Source: Geobacter sp. FeAm09
Lineage (GTDB): Bacteria > Desulfobacterota > Desulfuromonadia > Geobacterales > Pseudopelobacteraceae
Assembly: GCF_008330225.1 (NCBI RefSeq)
Contig: NZ_CP042466.1
Coordinates: 1,684,501 to 1,748,500 of the forward strand
Reading direction: 5' to 3'
Length of the DNA stretch: 64,000 nucleotides
The notes under the pieces were generated by a model. That model was not told where the DNA came from. It saw only the letters and a list, made by a program, of their open reading frames with translations, and searched no databases. Both the position numbers and the translations under genes were made by a program. Shown piece after piece: positions 6,280-50,696 of the stretch (positions within the stretch are counted from its first letter, which is position 1; every line of letters starts with the position of its first letter).

Positions 6280-6295
6280 GCGGAGAAAGCGTGGC

Positions 6296-8580: not shown

Positions 8581-8621
8581 GGGAGAGCGGCGAGAGCTGC
8601 CTCTTCGCCGCCCTGTCGGGG

Positions 8622-32446: not shown

Positions 32447-33234
32447 TGTCTCCTCTCCTTGTCCTCACCATGTTCGTCTGTGCGTTCGGCCTGGTCATCG
32501 GTTCCTTCCTGAACGTCTGCATCAGCCGCCTGCCCCGGCACGAATCGGTGGTTTTCCCGCCGTCCCACTGCCCCCTCTGCCAGTACCGCATCCGCTGGTT
32601 CGACAATATTCCGCTTCTGAGCTATCTGCTGCTTCGGGGCAGATGCCGCGGCTGCGGGGCGCACATCTCCTTGCAATATCCGCTGGTGGAGCTGCTGAAC
32701 GGGCTTTTGACCCTGGCCCTGTTCTGGCGGTTCGGGCTTTCCCTGAGCTTTGTGGTGCTGTTGCTCTTCTGCTCCGCCCTGGTGGTGATTACCTTCATCG
32801 ATATGGAACACCAGATTATCCCCGACGAAATCTCCCTGCCCGGGATCGTGATCGGCTTCATCTTCTCCTTCTTCCTGCCGTGGCAGACCTGGCTCGGCTC
32901 CCTGGCGGGAATCCTCCTGGGAGGAGGCAGCCTGCTGCTGGTTGCCTCCTGCTACCAGTGGCTCACCGGCAAGGAGGGCATGGGAGGGGGCGACATCAAG
33001 CTGTTGGCCATGATGGGGGCCTTCCTGGGGTGGAAAGCTGTTCCGTTCATCATCTTTGCCAGTTCCCTGGTCGGTTCGGTGGTGGGGATAACCATCATGC
33101 TGATCCAGAGGAAGGATTCCAAGCTGGCCATCCCCTTCGGCCCCTATCTTGCCTTTGGCGCGGTGTTGTACATCTTTTACGGCAGGCAGCTCATCCAGTG
33201 GTATCTCCACGTGGGCAGCGCCGTACGGGGATAA
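32443..33234 (+). CDS. pilD: Prepilin peptidase / N-methyltransferase
   Basis: 263 residues, about eight membrane helices. N-terminal domain with [12 protein letters not shown] and two zinc CxxC pairs (CPLC and CRGC), then the aspartyl protease with its two catalytic aspartates in [12 protein letters not shown] and GGGDIK. It cleaves the leader of type IV prepilins after glycine and methylates the new N-terminus. The four minor pilins at 43.2-46.0 kb carry matching G-F sites and are likely substrates. Start overlaps the ptsI stop. Confidence 0.95.
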
Positions 33235-33236
33235 CG

Positions 33237-34750
<1,514 letters not shown>

Positions 34751-34754
<4 letters not shown>

Positions 34755-35977
34755 CAGACAGCCCCAAACATATCCTGATCATCGACGACGAGGAAAACCT
34801 GCGTCACATGCTCTCGGTCATGCTGGCCCGCCAGGGATACCGGGCCGACACGGCGGCCAACGGCATTGCCGGGCTGGAGCGCCTCAGGTCGGCGACCTAC
34901 GATTTCGTCCTCTGCGATATCCGCATGCCGGAAATGGACGGCAAGACCCTTCTGGCAGAGGCGCTGGCGGCGGGCATCGCCTCGCCGTTCATCATGATGT
35001 CCGCCTATGGGACGGTGGACACGGCGGTGGCATGCATGAAGATGGGGGCCTACGACTTCATCTCCAAGCCGTTCAAAAAAGACGAGATCGTGATGGTGCT
35101 GAAAAAGGCCGAGGAACGGGAACGCCTCAAATCGGAGAACAGGAGGCTGCGGGAGATCGTGGCCGGCAAGGACGGTTTCTGCGGCATCGTCAGCCGCAAT
35201 CCGGCCATGCAGCAGATATTCTCCCAGATCCGCCGGATCGCCGATCTTAAGACCACCGCCCTGATCCTGGGGGAATCGGGCACCGGCAAGGAGCTTGTGG
35301 CCAACGCCATCCATACCTGTGGGAACAGGGCAAAGAAACCGTTCGTGGCGGTCAACTGCGGCGCCATCCCGGAGAACCTGCTGGAAAGCGAACTGTTCGG
35401 CCATGTGCGGGGTGCCTTCACCGACGCTTCCGGCGACAAGGCCGGGCTGTTCGAACAGGCCGACAACGGCACCCTCTTCCTTGACGAGATCGGCGAGATG
35501 CCCCAGGCCCTGCAGGTCAAACTTTTGCGGGTGCTCCAGGATGAGGAGATCCGCCGGGTGGGGGCCGCTGCGCCCCGTAAGGTCGATGTGCGGGTCGTTT
35601 CGGCCACGTCGCGGGATCTGGAGGCGGATGTGCGTTCAGGCCGTTTCCGGGAAGACCTCTACTTTCGGCTCAATGTTTTCAGCATCACCCTGCCGCCGCT
35701 CCGGGAACGGGTCGAGGATATTCCACTCCTGGCCGAATACTTCATTGCCAAATACGGGGCCGGCGGTGACGCCGCCCCGATCAGGATCGCCCCGGAGGCG
35801 CTGCGGCTGTTGACGGCATACGACTGGCCCGGCAATGTCCGCGAGTTGGAAAACGTCGTCGAACGCGCCACTATTCTGCGCACCGGCGACGCTATCACCG
35901 CCGAATGCCTGCCGCCCCGGGTCCGGGGGGGGCGGGAACCGTCGAAGTCCACCCGTCCGACGAAAACCTCTCCATAA
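34751..35977 (+). CDS. NtrC-family sigma-54 response regulator, receiver and AAA+ part (truncated by frameshift)
   Basis: 408 residues as it reads. Receiver domain with acceptor D56 (LCDIRMPEMDG) and K107; AAA+ domain with Walker A GESGTGKE (174-181), sigma-54 contact loop GAFTDA (221-226, G to D compared with textbook GAFTGA), Walker B TLFLDE (241-246) and WPGNVRELENVV. After residue ~392 the frame runs through a G8 tract (35925-35932), gains an unrelated tail and stops at 35977. The missing Fis-type DNA-binding domain is found in the -1 frame right after. GTG 34751 overlaps the kinase stop. As read, it cannot bind DNA specifically. Confidence 0.88.
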
Positions 35978-36287: not shown

Positions 36288-37067
36288 ATGCTCAAGATAT
36301 TGTTTGCCGTTGCCGCATTTATCACCCTTTGCACCTCGCCGCTCTTCGCCATGGATAAAGCGGGCCACAGCAGCGACTGCACGTCATGCCACACCCTTTC
36401 GAACACGGAGGCCGCGGAGCTGCTCAAGGCTACCGGGGGGACGGTAAAGTCCATCAAACCGGCCCCCATAAAGGGGATGTTCGAAGTCCTGATGGAAAAA
36501 GAAGGCCGGCAGGGCGTCATCTATGTGGATTACGCCAAAAAACGCCTCATGCAGGGGCTCATCGTCGATCTGGCGACCCTGCAGCCGGTTTCGGCGCACG
36601 TGCCGGAACAGCCCCAGCAGAAACAGGCACTCGATACCGCCACCATTCCCCTGGAAAACGCGGTGGTCATGGGCAACCCCAAAGGGGCCAGGAAGCTGTA
36701 CGTCTTCAGCGACCCGGACTGCCCCTATTGCCGTAAATTCCACGCCGAACTGAAGAGCCTGACCAAGGCGGCGCCGGATGTGGCGATTTACCTCGTTCCC
36801 TTCCCCCTGGCCATGCACCCGGGCGCCTACGACAAGGCGCGGGCGATCCTGGAGGCGAAGAGCCTGGATGTGCTGGACAGGGCCTTCGAAGGCAAGGAAG
36901 TCCCCAAGCCGACGAAGGATGCCAGCAAAGCCCAGGTGGATGCCAACATCAAGTTCGGCAATGCCAACGGCATTACCGGCACCCCCACGATGGTCATGCC
37001 GGACGGCAAGATCGTGGTGGGGGGCAGGGATGCGGAGACGTTGAAGAAGATGCTGGAGGGAAAGTAG
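36288..37067 (+). CDS. Heme-motif DsbC-like disulfide isomerase, copy 1
   Basis: 259 residues. Signal peptide (about 1-21), then CTSCH at 31-35, a CxxCH c-type heme site at the start of the mature protein. Next comes a DsbC-type dimerisation domain (~40-100; TVKSIKPAPIKGMFEVL resembles DsbC's own) and a thioredoxin-fold catalytic domain with CPYC at 145-148 in FSDPDCPYCRKFH and the cis-proline GTPT. It would isomerise or reduce disulfides in the periplasm. Ordinary DsbC has no heme site. GAAAGGA precedes ATG 36288. Followed after 8 bases by a paralogue, then by a cysteine-rich PilY1. Confidence 0.85.
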   Translation: MLKILFAVAAFITLCTSPLFAMDKAGHSSDCTSCHTLSNTEAAELLKATGGTVKSIKPAPIKGMFEVLMEKEGRQGVIYVDYAKKRLMQGLIVDLATLQPVSAHVPEQPQQKQALDTATIPLENAVVMGNPKGARKLYVFSDPDCPYCRKFHAELKSLTKAAPDVAIYLVPFPLAMHPGAYDKARAILEAKSLDVLDRAFEGKEVPKPTKDASKAQVDANIKFGNANGITGTPTMVMPDGKIVVGGRDAETLKKMLEGK

Positions 37068-37075
37068 GCTAATGC

Positions 37076-37864
37076 ATGAATTTTAAAACGTATATTACGA
37101 TAGGCTCCCTGTTGCTGCTGTCATCGCCAGCGCTATCGCGGGCTCATGAAAACACGGTCCGGGGCGATTGCGCTTCGTGTCACATCCTCTCGCCGGAAGA
37201 AGCCACTCAACTTCTGAAGAGAGGGGGGGGGACGGTCAAATCCGTCAAGCAGGCCCCCAATCGGGGCATGTTCGAACTGCTTGTGGAAAAAGACGGTCGA
37301 GAGGGAATCGTGTATCTGGATTACGGCAAAAAGTTCCTGATACAGGGATTGGTTCTCGGCCTGGACACCTTTCAGCCGGTGGCATCCCATGGCACTCCGG
37401 CCTTGCAGCCCCAGAGAATTGCCACCATTAACCCGGTTTCCCTTCCGGATCAGTACGCCCTGAACCTGGGGAACCCCGACGGAGCGAAACGCTTGTACGT
37501 CTTCACCGATCCCGACTGCCCTTATTGCCGCAACTTGCACGACGAGTTGAAAAAACTCGAAAAGATGGCCCCGCAAGTGTCGATCCGTGTCATGCTTTTC
37601 CCGTTGCCGACACATCAGGGGGCCTATGATAAGGCGCGGGTCATCTTGGGGCGGAAAAGCCGGGAACTGCTTGATATGGCCTTTGAAGGGAAAGCCCTGC
37701 CGCAGCCGATGGGTGACGAAGGCAAGGCGCCGCTTGACGCCGTCATGGGGTTTGCGTATGCCCATGGTTTTACCGGCACTCCTACCATTGTATTTCCCGA
37801 TGGGTCGGTGGTGGTGGGCGTTCGTGATGCCGCGACGCTAAAAAACTTGTTGGAACGCATGTAA
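37076..37864 (+). CDS. Heme-motif DsbC-like disulfide isomerase, copy 2
   Basis: 262 residues, a diverged tandem copy of the preceding protein with the same order: signal peptide (~1-23), CASCH at 32-36, DsbC dimerisation domain, and CPYC at 148-151 in FTDPDCPYCRNLH. Both the heme motif and the redox pair are kept, so both features appear to be under selection. Spacing to its neighbours is 8 bases upstream and 27 downstream, consistent with one operon with pilY1. Confidence 0.85.
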   Translation: MNFKTYITIGSLLLLSSPALSRAHENTVRGDCASCHILSPEEATQLLKRGGGTVKSVKQAPNRGMFELLVEKDGREGIVYLDYGKKFLIQGLVLGLDTFQPVASHGTPALQPQRIATINPVSLPDQYALNLGNPDGAKRLYVFTDPDCPYCRNLHDELKKLEKMAPQVSIRVMLFPLPTHQGAYDKARVILGRKSRELLDMAFEGKALPQPMGDEGKAPLDAVMGFAYAHGFTGTPTIVFPDGSVVVGVRDAATLKNLLERM

Positions 37865-37891
37865 CGCAGCAGCCAGGCAGGAGGATTTGTC

Positions 37892-40800
37892 ATGATACAG
37901 GGAAGTTTCAAGCTCGGGGCGGTTCTCACGGCGTTGGCACTGGCGTTGGGAAGCGGGGCCACCATGCTGCACGCGGCATCCAGTCAGACGACCTATGCCC
38001 CGAGCATGTCGGATTACTGTGTGCAGCCCCCGTTCCTGGCCGGATATGTGCCCCCCCAGGTGCTGTTCACCATGGGGAAGGATCACAAGTTCTATTATCC
38101 GGCCTATAACGACGCCTCGGATATCGACGGCGATGGCCAACTCGAAATCTCCTACAAAAATGATTTCGAATATTATGGTTATTTCGACTCCTACAAGTGC
38201 TACAACTATACGAGCGGCCGCTTTGAGCCCTACGGCAATACCAGCAGCAAGTACTGCACCGGTACTAATGCCGGTAAGTGGAGTGGCAATTTTCTCAACT
38301 GGGTCGCCATGTCCCGGGCCGATGTGATCAAGCTGGTGATATACGGCGGTTATCGAACCGCGGACAACCAGGGGACCAACTACGACGAAATCAGCGGCGA
38401 ATATATTCCCCAGGACGGCCATATCTGGGGTAAGGAGTACGTGGGGAGCGACGCCGCCAGTCTTTTTCCTGGCGGGGTCAGCAACAGCCGCGCCTTGTTT
38501 TGCGTCAACGGGGTCACGACCAACGGCAACAGTATCTCACAGTTGAATGTGATTCCCGAAGCCGACAAGATTAAAAATTCGTCAGGGAATTATGTGACCG
38601 GTCTGCGGGCCTGGAACTGGGTCAACGTGGACGGCAACAGCAATATCTGCTCCGGCACCGCCATTGATCTGAATAACGACGGACAAGCCGAGTCCGCCAC
38701 CTTGACGGGGCTGGCCAAGTACAACGTCTCGGTCAAGGTCTGCGATCCGTCGTCAGGCTTCATCAACGACGCCACTTGGGAGACGAAGCACTGCAAGCAA
38801 TACGGTTCCAACTACCGCTCCATCGGCCTGATGCAGCTTTACGGCGAAACTTCCAGCAGCGCCAAGGTCTGCAGCAAGGATATGTACACCTCCTGTACCA
38901 GTGACAGCACCTGTTCCTCCATCAGCAAGGGGCAGTGCGTCAATGCGGCCAACATGTTCTTCGGCTTGATCGCCGGGTCGTACCAGAATCCCAAGGCAGG
39001 TGGCTTCATTCGCAAGGACGTTTACAGCATCAACGAAGAAACCAACCAAAGCAACGGTCAGTTCCAGACCTCCGCCAGCAGCGGCAAGGGGTTGCTGATC
39101 AAATCCATCGAGCAGTTCAAGGCCCAGGCGTCCTATCCGTTGAACACCCAATGGGGCAACCCCATCGGTGAGATTCTGTACGAAGGGATGCGCTACTGGG
39201 CCGGCAAGGGCACCCCGACTTCCGACTTTGTTTCCAGTATCTCCAGCGGCTCCAACGGCGACAACAGCAACTACGCCTCCAAGCCGGACTGGGACACGCC
39301 GGCAACCCTGTACCCTACCTGTTCCATGCGTTTCAACCTGGTCTTTTCCGACGTTTACAACAGCTTCGACGACGACCAGTTGCCCGGCTCGGCTTTCAAT
39401 ACCAGTTTTAGCGGCGACTTGACGAACCTGAACGTCCAGACGCTGGCCGACCGGATAGGGAACAATGAAAGTCTGGGCACTTCCATGGTGGTGGGGGAGT
39501 CGCTGGCGACCAGTAGCCTATCAGGGCGTTGCGACAACAAGACCTCCATCGCCGGCATGGGGAGCGTCCGCGGGCTCTGTCCGGCTGAGGGGGATTTGAA
39601 GGGGAGCTATTATCCGGCCGCTGTGGCCTTGTACGGACACAACTCCATGCTTGCCAACACCAATACGTCCAACGTACTGACCTATGTGGTGGCCTTTACC
39701 TCCAATGTGCCCGAGGCCAGGGTGACGACAGCGGATGGAACCCAGGCCTTGATCATGCCCTACGGCAAATCGGTGTCCAGCAGTTACGGCTGGAACTGCA
39801 CCACCACCAATACAACCTTCACCGTTGCAGGCGTCAGAGATGCTACAAATACAAGCGTGCCGAACCTGAAAATCGATGCAAAATCCGGTTACACCACTTC
39901 AAGTTGCCCCTCCATGGCGACGGTCGGCTATTATGTGCTTGATAAAATGTACAACTCATCAAATAAACTCAACTATATCCAATTTCTTACCTCCTATGAC
40001 GACTTGGGGGGGGGCGACTATGATCTGGACGTGCTGGCCAAATATACGGTCTGCGCCGCAGGTAACAGTAATTGCTCGGATTTGACCGGAAGTCAGGTCC
40101 GGGTGACGGTGGAACGCGTGTATTCGTCGGCGGGCAACCCGAACGCTTTCGGCTTCACTGTTGCGGGCGTCGGCTCTTTGTCCGGAACCTACATGATCGT
40201 GCAGCATACCTCGAGCCCGCCGTCAGGGACGTCATGGGCTACCACCAGCACCCCACTTCCCACTACCTCCCAGTCCATGATTTTTAATGCCGCCTCCTCA
40301 ACCGTCACCCTGCCCAAGCCTCCCTTGTGGTATGCGGCCAAATACGGCGGCTTCAAGGATACGGACGGCACGGGACTGCCGTACACCGATGACACCTGCG
40401 ATCCCGCCACCCGAGGCTCGAACACGCGCAACACCCGCTGCAACCAATGGGACACCGTGGGGAACGGTACCCCGGACAATTACTTCCTGGTGACCGACCC
40501 GAGCAAGATGGAAGCGCAACTGCGCCTGGCGCTGGATTCCATTCTGGCGCGGGTCGCCTCGGGGACGGCGGCCTCGATTCTCAACAACAGCCAGGGGAGC
40601 GGTGCCAGCCTGATCCAGGCGGTCTTCTTCCCGCGCAAGGATTTCGACAACGGGACGTCGGGCTACTGGGTCGGCGAACTCTACAATATGTGGTATTACC
40701 TGGATCCGTTCCTCCAGACGACCTCCATCAGGGAAGATACCAACAAAGATTTTTCATTGAACCTGAGAAACGACAGGATTGCCCAGTTCTATTTCGATTC

Positions 40801-43147
40801 ATCCCAGAACAAGACCCAGGTGCAACTGTACAGCGATGCGAATGGCGACGGCTCGCCGGACTCGGCGACACCGGACGTGGTGGTGGACCCCGATGCGATC
40901 AGCAGCCTCTGGAAAGCCGGGAGATCCTTGTGGAGCAGGAATCCGACCAGTGACCCGCGCCTGCTCTATACCCATACCGATGATTCGACCCTGGATATCT
41001 TCAACAACAATAGCCTGACCAAATTTACGACCCTGACCAGTGCCTACAATCCGGCATTGCAGAACAAGAGCACCATCCTGTCGCTGCTTGGCATGTCCGA
41101 CATTACCAAGACCGGCAAGGTGATCGACTACATCAACGGCAGCGACCAGAGCGCGGACAGTGACGGCACCCTCTACCGCAGCCGCAAGGTCAGCATCAGC
41201 AATTGCGGCATCACCAGCACCAATCTGGAATCAACGTCCTCCGACAGTTGTTACCGTGTCTGGAAACTCGGCGATATCGTGACGTCCACCCCCAAGGTGG
41301 TTTCAACGGTAAGCCAGAATTCCTATAACAACGCCGTGCCCAACGGTTATAACGATCAGACCTACACCAAATTTCTCAACTCCTCGACCTACCAGAATCG
41401 GGGAATGGTGTTTGTCGGCAGCAACGACGGCATGCTGCATGCTTTCAGGCTGGGGGTGCTGAAGGAACTCTCCGGTAGATACGACAAGGCGCAGTTTTAT
41501 TATTCCGGCAGTCCGGCAACCAGCAGCAGCAACCTTGGACGCGAGGAGTGGAGCTTCATCCCGAAACAGGCACTGCCCTATCTGCCGTATCTGAAGGATA
41601 CCGCTTATTGTCATCTTTATTACGTCGATAAATCCCCGTCGCTTATTGATGCCAGCGTCATCAAGCCGTCAACGTGCTCCTCGTCCGCAAATTACTGGGA
41701 TTGCACCAAGAGTTCGGACGGTTCCACCTGGGAGACCGTGCTGGTTGGGGGAATGGGATATGGTGGCGCGGCCAAATGGAACGGCGACTCGACCTACACC
41801 GCCCCGACAGACAGCGTCAAAACGCCGGTTAAGGGGACAAGCACCGCGACCGGCGTGGGGTATTCCTCCTATTTCGCCCTTGATGTGACTGATCCTACCA
41901 CCCCCAAGTACCTCTGGGAGTTCCCGGGGACAACCTCCGCCGTCGGGCAGTTGGGCTTTTCCACCACCGGCCCGGCATTCGTCCGTATTGCGGGAAAGGT
42001 CAAAGCGACGGACGGCGTGACGGATACGGCGTCACCTGATCATACGAAAAATGGCCGTTGGTTTGCCGTGTTCGCCTCAGGTCCCACAGGGTACATCGAT
42101 ACCGTGCAGCATACCTTCCTGGGGCAGTCTGACCAGCAACTGCGGATTTTCATTGTCGATCTGGCCACCGGTGCCCTGGTGCGGACGATCGACAAATTCG
42201 CCGATAATACGACGCTCCCGACGTACGCATTTGCCGGCTCCCTGTCCACGAGCGTCATCGACACCGACCGGTGGAATTCGGGGTCCAGCGGGTGGTACAG
42301 TGATGACGCTGTCTATATCGGCTATGTGCAAAAGGCCAGCGACGGCACATGGACCAACGGTGGCGTGATACGACTATTGACCAAGGAAAGCACCGATCCC
42401 AGCACGTGGGTCGCCTCGCCCCTTATCAGCGGTATTGGTCCCGTCACTACCTCGGTTACCAAGCTGCAAGATCGCAGCAACAAAAATCTCTGGCTGTACT
42501 TCGGGACCGGCCGGTATTTCTTCAAAGGTGACGATGCTACGGGACAGCGGGTTCTGTACGGTGTCAAGGAACCCTGCTACAGTACCATAAATCGATATGC
42601 CAGAACCGGGCTTAACAACATAAATGGTGGAACGGACAACGACATCGACTCAACTTGCACCGACTCATCGCCATCAGGGCTGGTGAATCAATCGGGTTCG
42701 GCCTCATCAGCGCCGGCCACAACCCTCAGCACGAACGCCCCAGGGTGGTACATCAATCTGGATGGGGCCGACAGCACCAACTCCATCAATGCCGAGCGGG
42801 TGATTACCGACCCGGTTGCCAGTGCCGCCGGCGCGGTGTTTTTCACCACCTTGAAGCCGAGCGGGGACGTCTGCAAGTTCGGTGGAGATACGCTGATATG
42901 GGCGGTACGCTATGATACCGGCGGCGCTCCGCCTTCCGCGGCCATGCAGGGGAAAGCCCTGATACAGGTTTCCACTGGGGCATTCTCGCAGATATCGTTG
43001 CAGTCAGCCTTCAGCAGTTCAAACCAACGGTACAATTCGAGGCGTCTGTCAACCGCGATTTCCGGAGTTCCCCCTGTTTCCCAGGGGCTTTCACTGGTTA
43101 CGAACCCGCCACCGGTGAAGAAGTTCTTGCATGTGAAAGAAAAATAA
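37892..43147 (+). CDS. pilY1: PilY1/PilC-type pilus tip adhesin
   Basis: 1751 residues with a signal peptide (cleavage near residue 29). Calcium-loop-like motifs are visible (SDIDGDGQLE near residue 75; DLNNDGQAES; DANGDGSPDS). The C-terminal third holds the PilC/PilY1 beta-propeller (MVFVGSNDGMLHAF; WSFIPKQALPYLP; YFALDVTDPTTPKYLWEF). About 28 cysteines are scattered along the chain, many in close pairs, so disulfides are expected. PilY1 caps type IV pili with the minor pilins encoded next. AGGAGG precedes ATG 37892. The central region is rich in Ser, Thr and Asn and is not otherwise recognisable. Confidence 0.92.
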   Translation: MIQGSFKLGAVLTALALALGSGATMLHAASSQTTYAPSMSDYCVQPPFLAGYVPPQVLFTMGKDHKFYYPAYNDASDIDGDGQLEISYKNDFEYYGYFDSYKCYNYTSGRFEPYGNTSSKYCTGTNAGKWSGNFLNWVAMSRADVIKLVIYGGYRTADNQGTNYDEISGEYIPQDGHIWGKEYVGSDAASLFPGGVSNSRALFCVNGVTTNGNSISQLNVIPEADKIKNSSGNYVTGLRAWNWVNVDGNSNICSGTAIDLNNDGQAESATLTGLAKYNVSVKVCDPSSGFINDATWETKHCKQYGSNYRSIGLMQLYGETSSSAKVCSKDMYTSCTSDSTCSSISKGQCVNAANMFFGLIAGSYQNPKAGGFIRKDVYSINEETNQSNGQFQTSASSGKGLLIKSIEQFKAQASYPLNTQWGNPIGEILYEGMRYWAGKGTPTSDFVSSISSGSNGDNSNYASKPDWDTPATLYPTCSMRFNLVFSDVYNSFDDDQLPGSAFNTSFSGDLTNLNVQTLADRIGNNESLGTSMVVGESLATSSLSGRCDNKTSIAGMGSVRGLCPAEGDLKGSYYPAAVALYGHNSMLANTNTSNVLTYVVAFTSNVPEARVTTADGTQALIMPYGKSVSSSYGWNCTTTNTTFTVAGVRDATNTSVPNLKIDAKSGYTTSSCPSMATVGYYVLDKMYNSSNKLNYIQFLTSYDDLGGGDYDLDVLAKYTVCAAGNSNCSDLTGSQVRVTVERVYSSAGNPNAFGFTVAGVGSLSGTYMIVQHTSSPPSGTSWATTSTPLPTTSQSMIFNAASSTVTLPKPPLWYAAKYGGFKDTDGTGLPYTDDTCDPATRGSNTRNTRCNQWDTVGNGTPDNYFLVTDPSKMEAQLRLALDSILARVASGTAASILNNSQGSGASLIQAVFFPRKDFDNGTSGYWVGELYNMWYYLDPFLQTTSIREDTNKDFSLNLRNDRIAQFYFDSSQNKTQVQLYSDANGDGSPDSATPDVVVDPDAISSLWKAGRSLWSRNPTSDPRLLYTHTDDSTLDIFNNNSLTKFTTLTSAYNPALQNKSTILSLLGMSDITKTGKVIDYINGSDQSADSDGTLYRSRKVSISNCGITSTNLESTSSDSCYRVWKLGDIVTSTPKVVSTVSQNSYNNAVPNGYNDQTYTKFLNSSTYQNRGMVFVGSNDGMLHAFRLGVLKELSGRYDKAQFYYSGSPATSSSNLGREEWSFIPKQALPYLPYLKDTAYCHLYYVDKSPSLIDASVIKPSTCSSSANYWDCTKSSDGSTWETVLVGGMGYGGAAKWNGDSTYTAPTDSVKTPVKGTSTATGVGYSSYFALDVTDPTTPKYLWEFPGTTSAVGQLGFSTTGPAFVRIAGKVKATDGVTDTASPDHTKNGRWFAVFASGPTGYIDTVQHTFLGQSDQQLRIFIVDLATGALVRTIDKFADNTTLPTYAFAGSLSTSVIDTDRWNSGSSGWYSDDAVYIGYVQKASDGTWTNGGVIRLLTKESTDPSTWVASPLISGIGPVTTSVTKLQDRSNKNLWLYFGTGRYFFKGDDATGQRVLYGVKEPCYSTINRYARTGLNNINGGTDNDIDSTCTDSSPSGLVNQSGSASSAPATTLSTNAPGWYINLDGADSTNSINAERVITDPVASAAGAVFFTTLKPSGDVCKFGGDTLIWAVRYDTGGAPPSAAMQGKALIQVSTGAFSQISLQSAFSSSNQRYNSRRLSTAISGVPPVSQGLSLVTNPPPVKKFLHVKEK

Positions 43148-43217
43148 TGCTGTTATGTGTCGCTCAACAGTTACAATTTCCTGTGATGGTTTCGAGGCGC
43201 GGCGGGGAGACATGAAC

Positions 43218-43730
43218 ATGAGTAGAGCCGGATTCTCGTTGATCGAGTTGATTGTCACCATGGCTATCATTGGGATACTGCTTTCTGTCGCTACGCTCAA
43301 TTTTACCGCCATGCAGCGCAAGGCCCGGATCGAGAGCGAGACGCGGCAGATTTTTGCCGACCTGAATGATGCCAGGCTCAATGCCATCTATCTGAAGAGG
43401 AACTATCGGGTCACGTTCCAACCCGGCAGCTATGTGATGAAAAACTACACCAGCGACAATGAGGCCACAACGGCCGGGAAAACCCTTTTTACCAAAACAG
43501 TCCCCTATCAACTGAGCCTGAGCAATGGCGGTTCCATTGCAAATGCCGTTGCTGAATTCGACAAGAGGGGGCTTGCCACCGATCAGACGACCCTGAACAT
43601 TTTCTATGTCAATCCGGCAAAGAGCGGCGCCATAATTGATTGTATCGTTATTGGCGTGGCAAAAACAAATATGGGGCAGGGAGTGGACAGTGACAATAAT
43701 GGGCAGGCGGAAAGCTGCAGTGTCAAGTGA
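43218..43730 (+). CDS. Minor pilin, FimT/GspH type
   Basis: 170 residues with a type IV prepilin leader: MSRAG cut before FSLIELIVTMAIIGILL, with E at +5. The remainder fits a FimT/GspH pseudopilin (ARIESETRQIFADLNDARLNAI). ATG 43218 is chosen because GGGGAGA lies 7 bases upstream; ATG 43212 is also possible and only lengthens the leader. The C-terminus ends with a short Asp/Asn-rich segment (VDSDNNGQAES). Overlaps the next pilin gene. Confidence 0.87.
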   Translation: MSRAGFSLIELIVTMAIIGILLSVATLNFTAMQRKARIESETRQIFADLNDARLNAIYLKRNYRVTFQPGSYVMKNYTSDNEATTAGKTLFTKTVPYQLSLSNGGSIANAVAEFDKRGLATDQTTLNIFYVNPAKSGAIIDCIVIGVAKTNMGQGVDSDNNGQAESCSVK

Positions 43731-44103
43731 CCGTGGTTTTACTCTTATCGAGTTCCTTGTGGCCCTCGTCATCCTTATGGTGGGACTCTTGGGACTTTTG
43801 CAGGCCGTCAACGTCTCCCTGAATCACAATCTGCAGAACCAGTTGCGGAACGAGGGGGTTATCGTTGCGGATGAACAGATGGCCAAGGAAATGGCCAAAG
43901 GGTATGATCTCGTTTCCACATCTACCCGTACCTATGTCGTCAGTAATCGCCCGGTTTTGAATGCGTTGAAGAATTTTTCGGTTAGCCGATCCGGTACAAC
44001 CATCCAGAACTCCAAGCAGGTCAATATTGTGGTCACCTGGCACCACAAGGGGGCTTCGTACAATCATGAGGCGGCAGCGGTAATCACCAAGACAAATCAG
44101 TGA
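43699..44103 (+). CDS. pilV: Minor pilin PilV-like
   Basis: 134 residues. Prepilin leader ending DRG before FTLIEFLVALVILMVGLLGL; the PilV signature VALVILMVGLLGLLQ is clear. ATG 43699 gives a 13-residue leader; GTG 43720 would give a 6-residue one (MSSDRG) with an upstream CAGGCGGAA, so the true start is uncertain. It overlaps both neighbours, showing translational coupling. Confidence 0.85.
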   Translation: MGRRKAAVSSDRGFTLIEFLVALVILMVGLLGLLQAVNVSLNHNLQNQLRNEGVIVADEQMAKEMAKGYDLVSTSTRTYVVSNRPVLNALKNFSVSRSGTTIQNSKQVNIVVTWHHKGASYNHEAAAVITKTNQ

Positions 44104-44114
44104 ACGGAAATACT

Positions 44115-45398
44115 ATGCGATCGAATAACAGCGGTTTTACTCTGATTGAAGTGTTGATTGTCACGGCTGTTTTCGTGATTGTGCTGCTGATAACGGGAAG
44201 TGCCTTCAAGACGATCCTCGGGCAGAGCGCCAAGGTGTTTCGGAGCGAGGAGAGCAACATAGAAGGTATCATTGGTCTCGAAATGTTGCGGCATGACCTG
44301 CAGCAGGCCGGTTTGGGGCTGTTTACCGAAACCTCGACGGTCAGTTATACCGGCGAAGCCCTGAATGCTCCCGCAAGTACCTATAACGACTTCAATGCCG
44401 GTACGGAGCCGCCGCGGCCGATCGTCGCCGGCAATAATGTGGCGTCTGTTGCGTCGGACCCGGACAGCAGCGGCAATTATAAAATTCTTGCCGGCACCGA
44501 CTACCTGGTCGTAAAGGCCGCCACGGTCAGTACTTCCAAGACGGCACAGAAATGGACCTACCTTGAAATTTCGCCACCCAACGTCACGTCCCATTCCTGG
44601 CCATCCGCTGCGGAGAACCTGGGGAGCGGCGACAATGTGGTCCTGTTGAAGCGGCAGGTGAGTACCAGCGGCCAGAGCACGACCTTAACCCCCACCCTTA
44701 CGAACCAATTCTATTACACGTACAGCAATACGGCCTTTGCCCAGTTCTCATCGGCGAGCAACACCATATATACGGCGTATGGCATTGACAGCTCCACGCC
44801 CCGCATGCCCTTCAACCGGGCCGATTATTTTGTCGGGCTTCCAGTTATCGGTTCCGGTACACCCGATTCGAGCAGGATTCCCGATGTCTGTGCCAAGGAT
44901 GCCAGCGGCAGTCCCAGCCCCTATGTGGGAATCCTCTACAAGGCAACGGTCAATCATGCCGATGGCAAACTGACGTACCATCCGCTATTGGACTGCGTTG
45001 CCGATATGCAAGTGGTCCTCGGGTGGGATATGAACAGCGATGGCGCAATTGATTGTTATTCGAATGCGGATGGCACGGTCATGATCGGTAGTTGTACCGC
45101 ACCAACCGGCGGTACGGCGGCGGACGCCCTTTCAGCGACAAACAAAAACAACGCCTCCGCTGCCACAGTGCCGAATATCAGGAACAACCTGAAAATCGTA
45201 AAGGTTTACCTATTGGCCCAAAACGGCAGGCGTGATCCCAATTATACGAGTCCTTCACCGATTGTCGTCGGTGACACGGCGGCAGCTGAAACGAGTTTGA
45301 CTAATTCTTATGACTTAGCCGCCAAAGGACTGCTCAATTATCGTTGGAAACTGTATCGCGTCGTGGTTCGTCCCAAAAATCTCTTCTCCAATGAGTAG
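44115..45398 (+). CDS. pilW: Minor pilin PilW-like
   Basis: 427 residues. Leader MRSNNSG before FTLIEVLIVTAVFVIVLLI, then a long PilW-type periplasmic domain (IEGIIGLEMLRHDLQQAGLGLF is the typical stretch). Calcium-loop-like WDMNSDGAIDC is visible. ATG 44115 is preferred to the GTG at 44100, which overlaps pilV. Larger than most PilW proteins (about 270-350). Confidence 0.86.
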   Translation: MRSNNSGFTLIEVLIVTAVFVIVLLITGSAFKTILGQSAKVFRSEESNIEGIIGLEMLRHDLQQAGLGLFTETSTVSYTGEALNAPASTYNDFNAGTEPPRPIVAGNNVASVASDPDSSGNYKILAGTDYLVVKAATVSTSKTAQKWTYLEISPPNVTSHSWPSAAENLGSGDNVVLLKRQVSTSGQSTTLTPTLTNQFYYTYSNTAFAQFSSASNTIYTAYGIDSSTPRMPFNRADYFVGLPVIGSGTPDSSRIPDVCAKDASGSPSPYVGILYKATVNHADGKLTYHPLLDCVADMQVVLGWDMNSDGAIDCYSNADGTVMIGSCTAPTGGTAADALSATNKNNASAATVPNIRNNLKIVKVYLLAQNGRRDPNYTSPSPIVVGDTAAAETSLTNSYDLAAKGLLNYRWKLYRVVVRPKNLFSNE

Positions 45399-45407
45399 TC
45401 TGAGGTG

Positions 45408-46031
45408 ATGGTCTTGAACAGGATAAAGAATGAAGATGGTTTCGCCCTGGTCACATCCTTGATGCTGACCCTGATATCGCTCACGATTGTCATGGCTCTG
45501 CTCTACATGATGACCCAGAGCATCCACGTGTCGGGGATGAACAAGCGTTACAAGACCGCGGTTGAGGCGACCTATGGCGGAGCAGAGATATACGCCAAGG
45601 ATATCCTGCCGTTTATCATGCGGAACTACTCGAGTTCCACTTCCACCCTGTCGTCGAATCTTCAGACTGCCTTTGGCACCGGTGTTCAGTTGAATTCCAG
45701 CGAGTCATGTATGCGGAGCAAACTGACCAAATCGACCGCCAATTGGCCAGCTGGATGCAGTAACACACCCAACCCGAAACAGAATTACGATATGAGTTTC
45801 ACCATGGCAGCCGTTAAGGGCAGTCCGTTTGTCGTGTATTCCAAGATTGTCGACACGGTGAAGGGTAATTCCGATACGAGCGGTCTTCAACTGGAGGGTT
45901 CTGGAGTTGCGGAATCCAGTACTGTTCTCACGCCCCAGTCGATTCCATATATTTACCGTATGGAGCTTCAGGGAGAACGACAGAATAATCCCATGGCGCA
46001 AGCTAATATTGAAGTTCTTTACGCGTATTGA
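45408..46031 (+). CDS. pilX: Minor pilin PilX-like
   Basis: 207 residues. N-terminal EDG before FALVTSLMLTLISLTIVMALL, matching the PilX N-terminal domain, where alanine or similar replaces the glutamate +5 region of major pilins. The rest is a soluble pilin body with two cysteines. The start is uncertain among GTG 45405, ATG 45408 and TTG 45414, because GAGG at 45402-45405 best fits the last. Ends the pilY1-fimT-pilV-pilW-pilX string. Confidence 0.83.
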   Translation: MVLNRIKNEDGFALVTSLMLTLISLTIVMALLYMMTQSIHVSGMNKRYKTAVEATYGGAEIYAKDILPFIMRNYSSSTSTLSSNLQTAFGTGVQLNSSESCMRSKLTKSTANWPAGCSNTPNPKQNYDMSFTMAAVKGSPFVVYSKIVDTVKGNSDTSGLQLEGSGVAESSTVLTPQSIPYIYRMELQGERQNNPMAQANIEVLYAY

Positions 46032-46110
46032 AACATGGTGGAATGCTTTCAGGAATGTTGCGTCCTTAATTTATTCTTATTAGTTTGGTGTGGATAATGA
46101 TAAAAAACGC

Positions 46111-46140
46111 TTGACAAATAACTACATACATGGTTTTAAA
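46111..46140 (+). promoter_or_regulatory. Candidate promoter for the multiheme cytochrome operon
   Basis: TTGACA (46111-46116) and an 18-base spacer to TTTAAA (46135-46140). It lies in an AT-rich gap of 157 bases after pilX and about 45 bases before the GTG start of the cytochrome. The -35 is perfect; the -10 is weak. Confidence 0.5.
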
Positions 46141-46188
46141 GCACAGCTGCACTGTTATGTTTGACTTGATTGAAGGAGGGCTTGCGCT

Positions 46189-47541
46189 GTGCACAGGAAG
46201 ATTCCATGTGGTGTGGTTGTGTCGTTCGTCGTTTGTTTGCAACTCCTCGTGTCCCCCGGCTCTGCACATAATGCCCTTGCGTTGTCCAATCAACCCGCCC
46301 CCCCAAAGGTGTCCTGCGTCACCGCCGACTGCCACGGCAAGATGGGCACCGAAAAGTACGTGCACGGTCCCGTGGCGACGGGCGACTGCACCTTCTGTCA
46401 CAAACAGGCGGGAAAACACAAGTTCGAAGCCATAGAGAACACGGGCAAGCTGTGCGCCGAGTGCCATGAGCGGCTCGATACCCACAAATACGTACATGCC
46501 CCGGTGAAACAGGGCAAGTGCTTCACCTGCCACGATTCCCACCAGTCACCCAACAAATACCAACTTCGCGCCGCCGGCGCGGAACTCTGCTTCAAGTGCC
46601 ACGACCGCTCCATCATGAAGGGCAAATTCGTCCATGGGCCGGTTGCCGTGGGGAGTTGCACCACCTGTCACGCCGTGCACCAGGGCGATTTCCCCAAGCT
46701 GCTGCGGACAACGGCCAACGCCGTCTGCTTCGAATGCCACGCCGACAAGGCCGAGGCCTTCAAAAACAAGAAGTTTACCCATGCTCCGGTTCAGAAGTCC
46801 TGCACCCTCTGCCATGACCCCCATAACGGCGGATACCGGTACAACTTCAAGGCCGATGGTTCGGAAGAACTCTGCCTTGGCTGCCACAAGGACAAGCAGA
46901 CGGACATCAACTCGGCCACCGTGAAGCACAAGGGGCTCGCCACGGAAAAGAAATGCCTCGCCTGCCATGACCCCCACGTGTCCGATTACGTCAAACAGTT
47001 GACCATGCAGCCGGCAGACCTCTGCATGAGCTGCCACAACAAGGAGTATGGGGCCGGCGCGACGCGGGTGGCGAATATGAAGGCCATGCTGGATGCCAAT
47101 ACGGATTTTCACGGCCCCATCAAGCAGAAGGACTGTTCGGGGTGCCACAACACCCACGGTTCCAAGAATTTCAGGATCCTGCGCGAAAATTTTCCCCCCG
47201 TCTTTTATGCCGGCTATAACCCGGAAAACTACAAGCTGTGCTACATGTGCCATGAAAAATCCCTGGCCGACGACGAGCGCACGACCAAGTTGACCGCCTT
47301 CAGAAACGGCGACCAGAACCTGCATTTCGTCCATGTCAACAAAACGGTGAAGGGGCGTACCTGCCGGGCCTGCCACGATGCCCACGCCACCAACAACCCG
47401 CGCCACGTGCGGGATTCGGTCCCCTTCAACGCCTGGAAGCTGCCGGTCGGTTTCGAGAAGACCGCCGACGGCGGGCGTTGCCTGCCGGGGTGCCACAAGC
47501 TCTTCGCCTATGACCGGAAGCATGCGGTGAAGAATCAATAA
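46189..47541 (+). CDS. Multiheme c-type cytochrome, up to 15 hemes
   Basis: 450 residues from GTG 46189, with GAAGGAGGG as ribosome site 8 bases upstream. Signal peptide about 1-26. Thirteen CxxCH motifs (CTFCH, CAECH, CFTCH, CFKCH, CTTCH, CFECH, CTLCH, CLGCH, CLACH, CMSCH, CSGCH, CYMCH, CRACH), plus CX4CH at 43-49 (CVTADCH) and CX3CH at 431-436 (CLPGCH). Repeats of the form HGPV-x5-CxxCHxxH indicate doubled-CXXCH units. It is expected to be a periplasmic or outer-surface electron-transfer wire. No lipoprotein cysteine is evident at the cleavage site. Not recognisable as one of the named Omc cytochromes by eye. Confidence 0.92.
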   Translation: MHRKIPCGVVVSFVVCLQLLVSPGSAHNALALSNQPAPPKVSCVTADCHGKMGTEKYVHGPVATGDCTFCHKQAGKHKFEAIENTGKLCAECHERLDTHKYVHAPVKQGKCFTCHDSHQSPNKYQLRAAGAELCFKCHDRSIMKGKFVHGPVAVGSCTTCHAVHQGDFPKLLRTTANAVCFECHADKAEAFKNKKFTHAPVQKSCTLCHDPHNGGYRYNFKADGSEELCLGCHKDKQTDINSATVKHKGLATEKKCLACHDPHVSDYVKQLTMQPADLCMSCHNKEYGAGATRVANMKAMLDANTDFHGPIKQKDCSGCHNTHGSKNFRILRENFPPVFYAGYNPENYKLCYMCHEKSLADDERTTKLTAFRNGDQNLHFVHVNKTVKGRTCRACHDAHATNNPRHVRDSVPFNAWKLPVGFEKTADGGRCLPGCHKLFAYDRKHAVKNQ

Positions 47542-48101
47542 TGGCGGCTGGCACGAAGCGTTTGACGGCACACTCCCCCTTGCGCCTGCCTGGCGGCGGG
47601 CGGTGGGGCGTACGTGCCGTCATGGCCGCACTCATGGTCGCCGCTCCCTGGACGGCGGGTGCGGCAGCGCCCGAGGCCGCGGCCCCGGCGCAAACGGCAC
47701 CGCCCGTTGTCGCCCCGGTCGCCCCGGGTTCCGGGGACAGTGAGCTTTTCAGCCTGCGGGAGCAGATCGCGCGGGCGCCGGAGGACGCCGTCCTTCATGT
47801 GCGCCTGGGGTACCTGTTGCTGAACGCCGGCGCCCTGGCAGAGGCGAAGACGGCGTTCGACGAGGCGCTGAAGCACAACCGCCACTCCCATGCCGCCATG
47901 ACCGGGGAGGGGATTCTCCTGGCCCGGGCCGGCAACCTCAAAGAGGCCGAGCAGGTACTGCTGGCGGCCCTGGTCCGCAATCCCGACCCGGTCAGGACCC
48001 ATTACGAGCTGGGGCGCGTGTACGAGGCGTCGGGCGATCTCGACAAGGCGCTGGCCGAGTATAAAGAGGGCATCGCCAAGTACCGGCAGGGGAGAAAGTA
48101 A
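47541..48101 (+). CDS. Secreted or membrane-anchored TPR protein
   Basis: 186 residues. Hydrophobic N-terminal segment (AVMAALMVAAPWTAGAAA), an Ala/Pro-rich linker, then three or so TPR units ending EYKEGIAKYRQGRK. Its start ATG shares a base with the cytochrome stop, so it is made with the cytochrome and probably acts with it. Its last ~67 residues are almost the same as the C-terminus of the next gene: bases 47900-48101 match 49327-49528. Confidence 0.83.
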   Translation: MAAGTKRLTAHSPLRLPGGGRWGVRAVMAALMVAAPWTAGAAAPEAAAPAQTAPPVVAPVAPGSGDSELFSLREQIARAPEDAVLHVRLGYLLLNAGALAEAKTAFDEALKHNRHSHAAMTGEGILLARAGNLKEAEQVLLAALVRNPDPVRTHYELGRVYEASGDLDKALAEYKEGIAKYRQGRK

Positions 48102-49528
48102 CGGTTCCGTTCCCCTGCGCCACGAAGGTGTGCCGCACGTACCTGTCAGAAGGAACGATGATCACGACCATCCCCCCATCCCCCGTTTGGGCCGCCTTGA
48201 AAAAAAGCGCGCTGCTGGGCGTTTTGTTCGCGGCCTGCGCTGTTCTGCCCCCCACACCCGCCCATGGGACGCTCCAGCAGCTCCAGACCGGCATGGAGGC
48301 CCCCGACTTCTCCCTGTACCAGGCGGCCGGTGAAAAGAGATCGTTTGCCGACCTGAAAGGGGAGAAGCTGACGATCCTCCTGATCTGGTCCACCTGGGAC
48401 AAGAAATCGGAGAAGGCTCTGGCCCGGATGGAGCAACTGTACCGGAAGTACCGCGGCCGGGGACTGGCGGTCGTGGCCATCGAAGCGGATGTGCGGGGCG
48501 GCGCGGATGCCGACCCGCACATCCGTTCAATAGTCGGGCGGCTCGGGCTGACCTATCCGGTGCTGGTGGACCGGGGGCTGGACTATTTCCACGATATCGG
48601 CATCATCGCCCTGCCCACGACGGTCATCGTTGATCGGGAGCGGGTCATCCGGTACGAGCTTTCCGGCTACCCGCTGGTGGGTGCGGAGGAGATGGCGGAT
48701 TTCGTGACCGCCTCCCTGGAGGGGGCGAGGCCGGCCATAGCGGCGAAGAAGGGGTATCAGCCGGCCAAGAGTGCGCTTCGTTTCTACAACATGGGGCGGA
48801 ATACGCTGAAATCGGGACGCATGGCCGAGAGTTCGGAGATGTGGTTCAAGAAGGCCATTGAGGCCGACCCCGCGTTTGTCCTGCCCCACATCAGTCTGGG
48901 CAAATTCTATCGGGAGCGGGGCGACAAGGCCCTGGCTGAAGCGCAGTTCCGGGAGGCCCTGAGCAAGGAGCCGACCCATGTCATCGCCCTGTGCGAATCG
49001 GCGCTGCTCATGTTCGAGGACGGGCGGCTGGCAGAAGGGCAGAGCTTGCTGGAGAGCGCATTGAAGGCGGACGAATCCTACACGCCGTGCTATTACTACG
49101 CGGGTTTTGCCTATGGCCGGCAGGACAAGCCGGAGCAGGCGTTGCAGATGTTCGACGAGGCGGAGCGGATCAACCCCCTGGACTATAACCTGTACGTGTA
49201 CAAGGGGCGGGTGTTTGAAGAGCGGAAGCGACCGCGGGAAGCGGCCGGGGCCTATCGCAAGGCGCTGGAAACCATCCTCCAGATCGATGAAACCCTGAAA
49301 CGCACTGGGCAGACCCCCGGCGCCAAGACCGGGGAGGGGATGCTCCTGGCCCGGGCCGGCAACCTCAAGGAGGCCGAGCAGGTACTGCAGGCGGCCCTGG
49401 TCCGCAATCCCAACCCGGTCAGGACCCACTACGAGCTGGGGCTCGTGTACGAAGCGTCGGGCGATCCCGACAAGGCGCTGGCGGAGTATAAAGAGGGCAT
49501 AGCGAAGTATCGGCAGGGAAGAAAATAG
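47900..49528 (+). repeat. 202-bp direct repeat encoding a shared TPR tail
   Basis: Bases 47900-48101 and 49327-49528 are the same length and nearly identical, starting GACCGGGGAGGGGAT. They encode the C-terminal TPR tail of the small TPR protein and of TlpA-like copy 1. This is a second duplication layered on the 1-kb one. Confidence 0.85.
48158..49528 (+). CDS. TlpA-fold/TPR protein lacking redox cysteines, copy 1
   Basis: 456 residues. Signal peptide (about 1-37), an AhpC/TlpA thioredoxin-fold domain (APDFSLYQAAGEKRSFADLKG; LPTTVIVDRE with cis-Pro), then about six TPR units. Where TlpA has WCxxC the sequence reads WSTWDKKSE: both cysteines are replaced (D and S), so thiol chemistry is lost. 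AGAAGGA precedes ATG 48158. The C-terminal ~67 residues duplicate the end of the preceding TPR protein. Probably a periplasmic binding or scaffold protein for the cytochrome; that is inference. Confidence 0.84.
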   Translation: MITTIPPSPVWAALKKSALLGVLFAACAVLPPTPAHGTLQQLQTGMEAPDFSLYQAAGEKRSFADLKGEKLTILLIWSTWDKKSEKALARMEQLYRKYRGRGLAVVAIEADVRGGADADPHIRSIVGRLGLTYPVLVDRGLDYFHDIGIIALPTTVIVDRERVIRYELSGYPLVGAEEMADFVTASLEGARPAIAAKKGYQPAKSALRFYNMGRNTLKSGRMAESSEMWFKKAIEADPAFVLPHISLGKFYRERGDKALAEAQFREALSKEPTHVIALCESALLMFEDGRLAEGQSLLESALKADESYTPCYYYAGFAYGRQDKPEQALQMFDEAERINPLDYNLYVYKGRVFEERKRPREAAGAYRKALETILQIDETLKRTGQTPGAKTGEGMLLARAGNLKEAEQVLQAALVRNPNPVRTHYELGLVYEASGDPDKALAEYKEGIAKYRQGRK

Positions 49529-50684
49529 CACATCAGGCGTGAGTTGAAGAGCGGAAGGTATAATGTCCCGAAAAAGAGTTCCAAGCCCCCATCCGGTTTT
49601 GAAGAAAACCGCGCTCCTGGCCACACTGCTCACCGCGTACGGCATGTTCCTGTTCACCCCGGCGGCGGCGACGCTCCAGCAGCTCCAGACCGGCATGGAG
49701 GCCCCCGACTTCTCCCTGTACCAGGCGGCCGGTGAAAAGAGATCGTTTGCCGACCTGAAAGGGGAGAAGCTGACGATCCTCCTGATCTGGTCCACCTGGG
49801 ACAAGAAATCGGAGAAGGCTCTGGCCCGGATGGAGCAACTGTACCGGAAGTACCGCGGCCGGGGACTGGCGGTCGTGGCCATCAATGCGGACGGGCAAAA
49901 GATCTCCGACGCCGACCTGGCGCGCATCCGTTCAATCGTCGAGCGGCTCGGGCTGACCTATCCGGTGCTGGTGGACCGGGGGCTGGACTACTTCCACGAT
50001 ATCGGCATCATCGCCCTGCCCACGACGGTCATCGTGGACCGGGAGCGGGTCATCCGGTACGAGCTTTCCGGCTACCCGCTGGTGGGTGCGGAGGAGATGG
50101 CGGATTTCGTGACCGCCTCCCTGGAGGGGGCGAGGCCGGCCATAGCGGCGAAGAAGGGGTATCAGCCGGCCAAGAGTGCGCTTCGTTTCTACAACATGGG
50201 GCGGAATACGCTGAAATCGGGACGCATGGCCGAGAGTTCGGAGATGTGGTTCAAGAAGGCCATCGAGGCCGACCCCGCGTTTGTCCTGCCCCACATCAGC
50301 CTGGGCAAATTCTATCGGGAGCGGGGCGACAAGGCCCTGGCTGAAGCGCAGTTCCGGGAGGCCCTGAGCAAGGAGCCGACCCATGTCATCGCCCTGTGCG
50401 AATCGGCGCTGCTCATGTTCGAGGACGGGCGGCTGGCAGAAGGGCAGAGCTTGCTGGAGAGCGCATTGAAGGCGGACGAATCCTACACGCCGTGCTATTA
50501 CTACGCGGGTTTTGCCTATGGCCGGCAGGACAAGCCGGAGCAGGCGTTGCAGATGTTCGACGAGGCGGAGCGGATCAACCCCCTGGACTATAACCTGTAC
50601 GTGTACAAGGGGCGGGTGTTTGAAGAGCGGAAGCGACCGCGGGAAGCGGCCGGGGCCTACCGCAAGGCGCTGGAAACCATCCTC
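48269..50684 (+). repeat. Tandem direct repeat, about 1 kb, within the two TlpA-like genes
   Basis: Unit 1 is 48269-49279 and unit 2 is 49671-50684. They start ACGCTCCAGCAGCTCCAGAC and differ by a few silent changes, plus one diverged patch (about 48480-48530 against 49882-49935) with a one-codon length difference. Offset is 1402 bases before and 1405 after the patch. The patch suggests gene conversion with a third copy or selection at that loop. Confidence 0.88.
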
Positions 50685-50696
50685 GGCATCCACTAG
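49563..50696 (+). CDS. TlpA-fold/TPR protein lacking redox cysteines, copy 2
   Basis: 377 residues. Different signal-peptide region (MSRKRVPSPH...), then nearly identical to copy 1 across the thioredoxin fold and TPR units, including WSTWDKKSE in place of the CxxC site. A short patch (about residues 107-123, AINADGQKISDADLARI) differs. It lacks the extra C-terminal TPR tail of copy 1 and ends ETILGIH. Recent tandem duplication is evident at DNA level (see repeat entry). Confidence 0.84.
   Translation: MSRKRVPSPHPVLKKTALLATLLTAYGMFLFTPAAATLQQLQTGMEAPDFSLYQAAGEKRSFADLKGEKLTILLIWSTWDKKSEKALARMEQLYRKYRGRGLAVVAINADGQKISDADLARIRSIVERLGLTYPVLVDRGLDYFHDIGIIALPTTVIVDRERVIRYELSGYPLVGAEEMADFVTASLEGARPAIAAKKGYQPAKSALRFYNMGRNTLKSGRMAESSEMWFKKAIEADPAFVLPHISLGKFYRERGDKALAEAQFREALSKEPTHVIALCESALLMFEDGRLAEGQSLLESALKADESYTPCYYYAGFAYGRQDKPEQALQMFDEAERINPLDYNLYVYKGRVFEERKRPREAAGAYRKALETILGIH

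Follow-up and report, generated by a model that had tools for sequence, protein, structure and literature searches.

A CxxCH-bearing DsbC-like protein encoded ahead of PilY1 in Geobacterales: a candidate pilus-tip maturation factor, next to a separate cytochrome cassette in Oryzomonas

Introduction

PilY1 is a pilus-tip adhesin and sensor, and to our knowledge little is known about its folding. In the genome of Geobacter sp. FeAm09, whose genus is Oryzomonas (O. japonica Red96, L121, is among the members), the PilY1 gene is preceded by two genes for DsbC-like proteins with a CxxCH motif and followed by genes for four minor pilins, a multiheme cytochrome, a TPR protein and two TlpA-fold proteins. 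This raises the question why a putative disulfide isomerase with a candidate heme c site stands ahead of PilY1, and whether the cytochrome belongs to the same system. We analysed a window of 64,000 nucleotides (positions 1684501-1748500 of the 4.10-Mb single-contig genome); coordinates given without a locus handle are window positions. A sequence-only reading had counted ten genes here and joined them into a single tip complex. The list of open reading frames (ORFs) holds eleven genes at 36288-50696, and the ORFs and translations confirmed that all lie on the + strand in the order described. The run consists of two modules, a pilus-tip operon and a cytochrome-TPR-TlpA cassette. The coupling of DsbC, PilY1 and minor pilins in the proposed complex is supported by synteny across the Geobacterales; the cytochrome, TPR and TlpA proteins form a separate cassette. 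With moderate confidence we propose that the CxxCH-DsbC encoded before PilY1 is a periplasmic maturation factor dedicated to PilY1, which would work like the small cytochrome TfcP of Myxococcus xanthus, and that the cytochrome cassette is separate.

Conservation of the pilus-tip operon

The window's family, the Geobacteraceae and other families of the Geobacterales share the order pilD-pilS-pilR-DsbC-PilY1-FimU-PilV-PilW-PilX. In many relatives a small helix-turn-helix (HTH) gene and pilM-N-O-P-Q follow directly after the tip operon. Our genome searches covered a sample of relatives, and some contigs end inside the region. By a strict count within the window's family, PilY1 stands directly after DsbC in 35 of the 46 loci with enough downstream DNA, and a pilR ortholog precedes DsbC in 47 of 55 with enough upstream DNA. 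For the other families of the order the corresponding count was 13 of 18 loci with PilY1 next to DsbC; the remaining five hold second, non-pilus DsbC copies. Since this synteny spans the order, it supports a coupling of the CxxCH-DsbC to PilY1 and the minor pilins. Two DsbC genes in tandem are not the rule, as most relatives have a single one. Judging from the spacing, the genes from DsbC1 to PilX would form a type IVa pilus priming or tip operon. In the open-access literature that we searched we found no paper that describes a CxxCH-DsbC next to PilY1, in the Geobacter cluster GSU2029-GSU2039 or elsewhere.

As stated in the sequence-only reading, pilD and a two-component pair precede the run, and they recur there in relatives. 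The ORF of the prepilin peptidase pilD lies at 32443..33234 on the + strand, just before pilS, pilR and DsbC as in the relatives. The PilS-like sensor histidine kinase (33240..34754, +, start codon approximate) and the PilR-like NtrC-family response regulator (34751..35977, +, starting at GTG 34751 or ATG 34718) were identified from their translations and the conserved gene order.

In six loci (L047 at 5988-6524, L053, L056, L057, L065 and L071) the interval between DsbC and PilY1 holds a gene for a J-domain-like, zinc-ribbon, membrane-anchored protein of 177-182 amino acids (aa). The CxxCH of this protein is probably part of the zinc ribbon and not a heme site. In L068 (5994-6658, genus g2) a RelE/HigB-like and an antitoxin-like gene are inserted straight after DsbC.

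Domains and motif of the DsbC-like proteins

DsbC1 (36288..37067, +, 259 aa) and DsbC2 (37076..37864, +), the paralog in the slot adjoining PilY1, are 51% identical. Each has a signal peptide-like start, a single CxxCH (CTSCH at residues 31-35 in DsbC1, CASCH in DsbC2) and a CPYC active site; the signal-like N-termini of these proteins were judged by eye. Pfam detected DsbC_N and thioredoxin domains in both, with DsbC_N scores of 36.6 bits for DsbC1 (above the cut-off of 25) and 20.2 bits for DsbC2 (below it). The NCBIfam DsbC equivalog scores of 76.6 and 51.9 bits did not reach the cut-off of 215 bits. On these scores both proteins are assigned a DsbC-like fold and are not E. coli-type DsbC equivalogs. 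An AlphaFold2 model of DsbC1 (33 sequences, pLDDT 89) displayed the two-domain DsbC fold, and its top match in Foldseek was DsbC 1eej with an E value of 1.4e-14. The earlier identification of two DsbC-like proteins with CxxCH was thus confirmed by Pfam, and for DsbC1 also by the model.

The part of the protein that can be aligned with solved DsbC proteins is immediately preceded by a short N-terminal extension, in which the CxxCH is found. We found the motif in 118 of the 133 collected homologs, and hence it is not there by chance. Its middle pair of residues occurs in 39 different versions, whereas the active site is CPYC in 101 and CPFC in 21 of the 133 homologs. A variable middle pair combined with a rigid thioredoxin site is what is expected for heme attachment and not for a thiol site. 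The CxxCH-DsbC is probably a mono-heme c protein. A histidine in the linker is kept in the window's family and absent in members of the Geobacteraceae that retain CxxCH; it was therefore rejected as a universal distal heme ligand. Two further proteins of the window's genome lack CxxCH: L243, which is DsbC-like, and L244, which is short and consists of a thioredoxin domain only.

Across the Desulfuromonadia the CxxCH-DsbC_N module was present in 147 of 187 good genomes and in 64 of 82 genera. At the loci that we read outside the Geobacterales the CxxCH-DsbC gene lies away from pilus genes and is often flanked by an mntP-like gene and fabI, and in Nitrospirota and other phyla it is found beside dap or heme biosynthesis genes. 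The Geobacterales proteins form a clade in the tree (support 0.93), and 86 of its 92 leaves are linked to pilR or PilY1. The simplest history suggested by the tree is a single recruitment to the pilus operon, in the Geobacterales. Two of the Nitrospirota genes (L184 and L191) appear to be split over two reading frames.

Natural separation of the two DsbC halves

In G001 and G034 of genus g2, which contains Trichlorobacter, the PilY1 operon stands apart from pilD-pilS-pilR. Its first gene (in L241 and L242) stands alone and encodes a predicted exported CxxCH-DsbC_N protein of 123-140 aa; PilY1 is the second gene after it. The gene in between encodes a small, predicted exported protein of ~95 aa (reverse strand 8885-9181 in L241, 8307-8628 in L242), and the gap contains no thioredoxin remnant in either locus. 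The two stand-alone copies are 60% identical over 90 codons; with a dN of 0.31 and a saturated dS of ~2.9 these genes are under selection. The tree groups them with the DsbC2-type proteins (support 0.95). The opposite separation was observed in four genomes of genus g18 (L226, L246-L248), where a full DsbC with CPFC stands before PilY1 and the CxxCH is lost. Taken together, the two forms indicate that either half of the protein can persist near PilY1 without the other.

Short genes with weak similarity to the ~95-aa protein occupy the same slot in other relatives; there is none in the window. In the g18 loci pilR and DsbC are separated by an additional gene, which is pilin-like.

PilY1 and the minor pilins

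The PilY1 gene (37892..43147, +) encodes 1751 aa with 28 cysteines, in agreement with the ~28 reported before. Pfam alone failed to name it: a scan of the whole protein gave no match, and the score against PF05567 was weak (20.4 bits, under the cut-off). A profile of ten orthologs was needed, and searched against the PDB it matched P. aeruginosa PilY1 (3hx6) at 1.1e-20, which supports a C-terminal beta-propeller domain. At ~residues 982-990 we found DANGDGSPD, an EF-hand-like calcium motif. It fits the pattern Dx[DN]xDGxxD described for PilY1 (PMC8833165). A motif scan of PilY1 relatives located the calcium motif there as well and gave between 8 and 77 cysteines per protein.

The four genes described as minor pilins hold up as such: three have N-methylation motifs and the fourth is PilX-like by sequence and position. 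The FimU/GspH-like pilin (43212..43730, +) has N_methyl (PF07963) and GspH-like matches, and the PilV-like pilin (43699..44103, +) has N_methyl and PilV/GspI-like matches. PilW (44115..45398, +) scored 30.2 bits with PF16074, over the cut-off. The PilX-like pilin (45405..46031, +) begins with GFALVTSL, lacks Glu5 and had no Pfam or NCBIfam match; its orthologs follow PilW in relatives.

The cytochrome cassette

As stated in the sequence-only reading, the gaps within the eleven-gene run are short, with the exception of the 157 bp between PilX and the cytochrome (46032..46188, +). This gap between the two modules holds TTGACA, and a scan of its + strand gave no terminator-like match. The cytochrome gene (46189..47541, +) encodes a protein of the paired-CxxCH superfamily according to Pfam, NCBIfam and its orthologs. 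The count of 15 motifs given earlier was correct, and in detail they are 13 CxxCH, one CX3CH and one CX4CH, none of which varies among 13 orthologs. The protein shares paired CxxCH repeats with the DmsE/MtrA-type, doubled-CxxCH cytochromes and matches the 333-aa chain 6r2q_A, which we take to be MtrA. It does not reach the DmsE cut-off (TIGR03508, 153.7 versus 192.2 bits), and it differs from these types in its 15 motifs and its fixed TPR and CxxC-less TlpA partners.

Many other genera have orthologs of the cytochrome, with 54-77% identity, and almost all of these are part of a cytochrome-TPR-TlpA unit (the TPR gene was not detected in L291). The unit has unrelated neighbours in these genera, frequently other multiheme cytochromes, and among the 17 loci that we read outside Oryzomonas none had a PilY1/minor pilin operon beside it. 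The cassette follows PilX in Oryzomonas genomes only, namely in the window's genome and four others, where it occupies the place that pilM-Q holds in relatives; in a sixth Oryzomonas genome (L119/L036) the tip operon is not followed by the cassette. The pilM-Q genes of the window's genome are found ~190 kb from the tip operon (L120). The order predicted to be conserved in the Geobacterales is therefore conserved for DsbC, PilY1 and the minor pilins, and the cytochrome half is not syntenic beyond Oryzomonas. As the unit stands away from pilus-tip genes in 17 of 17 loci of other genera, we regard it, on gene order, as a separate module: a real conserved unit and not part of the pilus tip complex.

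The partners of the cytochrome are likely its assembly partners. The TPR gene (47541..48101, +) encodes a predicted exported protein with Pfam TPR matches and is found at the same place in relatives. The two TlpA-fold proteins with TPRs (copy 1 at 48158..49528, copy 2 at 49563..50696, both +) were characterised by direct repeats and ortholog comparison. Both have WSTWDKKS where TlpA has CxxC, in line with their earlier description as redox-dead, and CxxC is also absent in the TlpA proteins that we read from the cassettes of relatives.

The TlpA pair are tandem duplicates of ~1.4 kb with 93% identity. The direct repeats in this region measure 242-300 nt, are 88-98% identical and are spaced 1402-1427 apart, and the end of copy 1 duplicates the end of the TPR gene. 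We considered whether the pair is an assembly artefact and rejected this, as duplicates are present in four of the five cassette-bearing Oryzomonas genomes. The tandem duplication at 47857-50696 is recent. The TlpA-TPR copies within a genome are 89-94% identical and mostly closer to each other than to orthologs in the genus, which suggests repeated duplication or gene conversion.

Proposed role and alternative explanations

In the proposed mechanism the thioredoxin domain with CPYC would reshuffle disulfides in the large, cysteine-rich PilY1. The N-terminal CxxCH most likely bears one covalent heme c and, together with DsbC_N, may serve as a client-binding and stabilising module, as TfcP does for PilY1.1. 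The protein is predicted to be exported and would work on PilY1 while it is still in the periplasm, ahead of the entry of PilY1 and minor pilins into the pilus machine; we would not expect it at the pilus tip itself. TfcP (cluster_1, Mxan_0363) is a small cytochrome c encoded in a PilY1/minor pilin operon, and it stabilises PilY1.1 by promoting calcium binding (PMC8833165). It is periplasmic, acts outside electron transport and was not found in pili, and its authors found no homologs outside the Myxococcales (PMC8833165). Like TfcP, the CxxCH-DsbC has an export signal by prediction, one CxxCH and a conserved position in a PilY1/minor pilin operon. However, a contribution to PilY1 was demonstrated by experiment for TfcP alone, and a role in folding or calcium binding is assigned to the CxxCH-DsbC by analogy. 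TfcP also differs in fold: it is a cytochrome c with His/Cys ligation whose C-terminal helix is charged, and a thioredoxin domain is absent, whereas the CxxCH-DsbC has the DsbC_N module and usually the isomerase domain. The likeness is thus one of working and not of membership. With E. coli DsbC (1eej) the CxxCH-DsbC shares the two-domain fold, the CxxC thioredoxin site and the DsbC_N dimerization domain, and it differs in the N-terminal CxxCH extension and the fixed place before PilY1.

Several observations weigh against a dedicated maturation factor. PilY1 was not found adjoining DsbC in 11 of the 46 family loci. In Nitrospirota and in other Desulfuromonadia the subfamily has no connection to pili, which means that PilY1 was not its original client. 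Our alignments did not reveal a distal heme ligand that is conserved across the homologs, and both the heme and the contact with PilY1 are predictions from sequence. Only two genomes, both of one genus, are known to have the stand-alone form, and each retains a full CxxCH-DsbC elsewhere. Finally, genus g18 keeps the gene before PilY1 without the CxxCH, and the motif is thus dispensable somewhere.

The single complex of the sequence-only reading, in which the multiheme cytochrome is assembled with DsbC, PilY1 and the minor pilins into an electron-conducting tip, would account for the common strand and short gaps in the window and for the same arrangement in four other Oryzomonas genomes. We nevertheless consider it very improbable. 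The 17 loci of other genera, the Oryzomonas genome that lacks the cassette behind its tip operon (L119) and the 157-bp gap all speak against it, and on synteny a single operon of all eleven genes was rejected for the cassette. That TfcP works outside electron transport and is not in the pilus also argues against a wiring function of a CxxCH beside PilY1. Furthermore, the available part of the G. sulfurreducens electrode transposon-sequencing (Tn-seq) defect table contains pilQ, P, O and M and not GSU2034-2039 (PMC5585712). A heme-free role of the N-terminal CxxC(H), as a zinc or copper site or as a further redox disulfide of the isomerase, is rather unlikely. A cysteine or histidine within seven residues upstream of CxxCH, giving C-x3-4-CxxCH, is present in 105 of the 118 homologs with the motif, as would suit such a site, and the cytoplasmic-looking J-domain protein encoded at several of these loci provides a CxxCH that is probably not heme-bound. 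However, 13 homologs, the DsbC2 of the window among them, do not have this additional ligand, and a zinc site was rejected as the fourth ligand is not conserved. A histidine right after the second cysteine and a free middle pair are the signature of heme c, and the protein is apparently exported in bacteria that make many cytochromes. We give still less credence to a general periplasmic isomerase whose heme draws electrons from the cytochrome pool and keeps CPYC reduced, without or beside DsbD, with the pilus position marking a high-demand client. The wide occurrence of the module in a cytochrome-rich class and the non-pilus loci outside the Geobacterales would fit this explanation. Against it, the window's genome encodes a CcdA/DsbD-type protein, the stand-alone module retains CxxCH without a CPYC site, four genomes retain CPFC without CxxCH, and we know of no precedent for transfer from a one-electron heme to a two-electron disulfide.

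A DsbC-like protein that keeps a heme motif, is fixed beside PilY1 throughout the Geobacterales and was split both ways by evolution offers a direct handle on PilY1 folding and predicts a dedicated folding factor. The natural variants allow the heme, dimerization and isomerase parts to be examined apart. A further step would be to see a heme-bearing DsbC subfamily here, with a CxxCH-dimerization module separable from the isomerase domain, that would be a second and independently evolved heme-protein chaperone of PilY1, convergent with TfcP. We suggest this tentatively, as something possible rather than probable; if true, c-type heme proteins would be a recurrent solution for pilus-tip folding. 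It would be tempting to take the neighbouring multiheme cytochrome as a sign that the pilus tip conducts, but it is no evidence for this.

Additional observations

The Geobacter cluster GSU2029-GSU2039 comprises PilM-P, PilX, PilW, PilV, FimU, PilY1 and GSU2039, called PilL, and its genes are jointly up at 1% oxygen (PMC6964889, PMC2700814). Oryzomonas differs from it in having pilM-Q elsewhere and the cytochrome cassette in its place. A scan of the window for RNA families and tRNAs gave no match. Equal-scoring copies of the cytochrome at 74.6 kb and 4.088 Mb were considered as terminal redundancy of the G000 contig, and this was discarded as the expected overlap did not match. The pilM gene of the window's genome (L120, G000:C1:1520001-1540000, ~8592-9650) appears to be frameshifted near its 3' end into pieces of 296 aa and 51 aa, by mutation or sequencing error.

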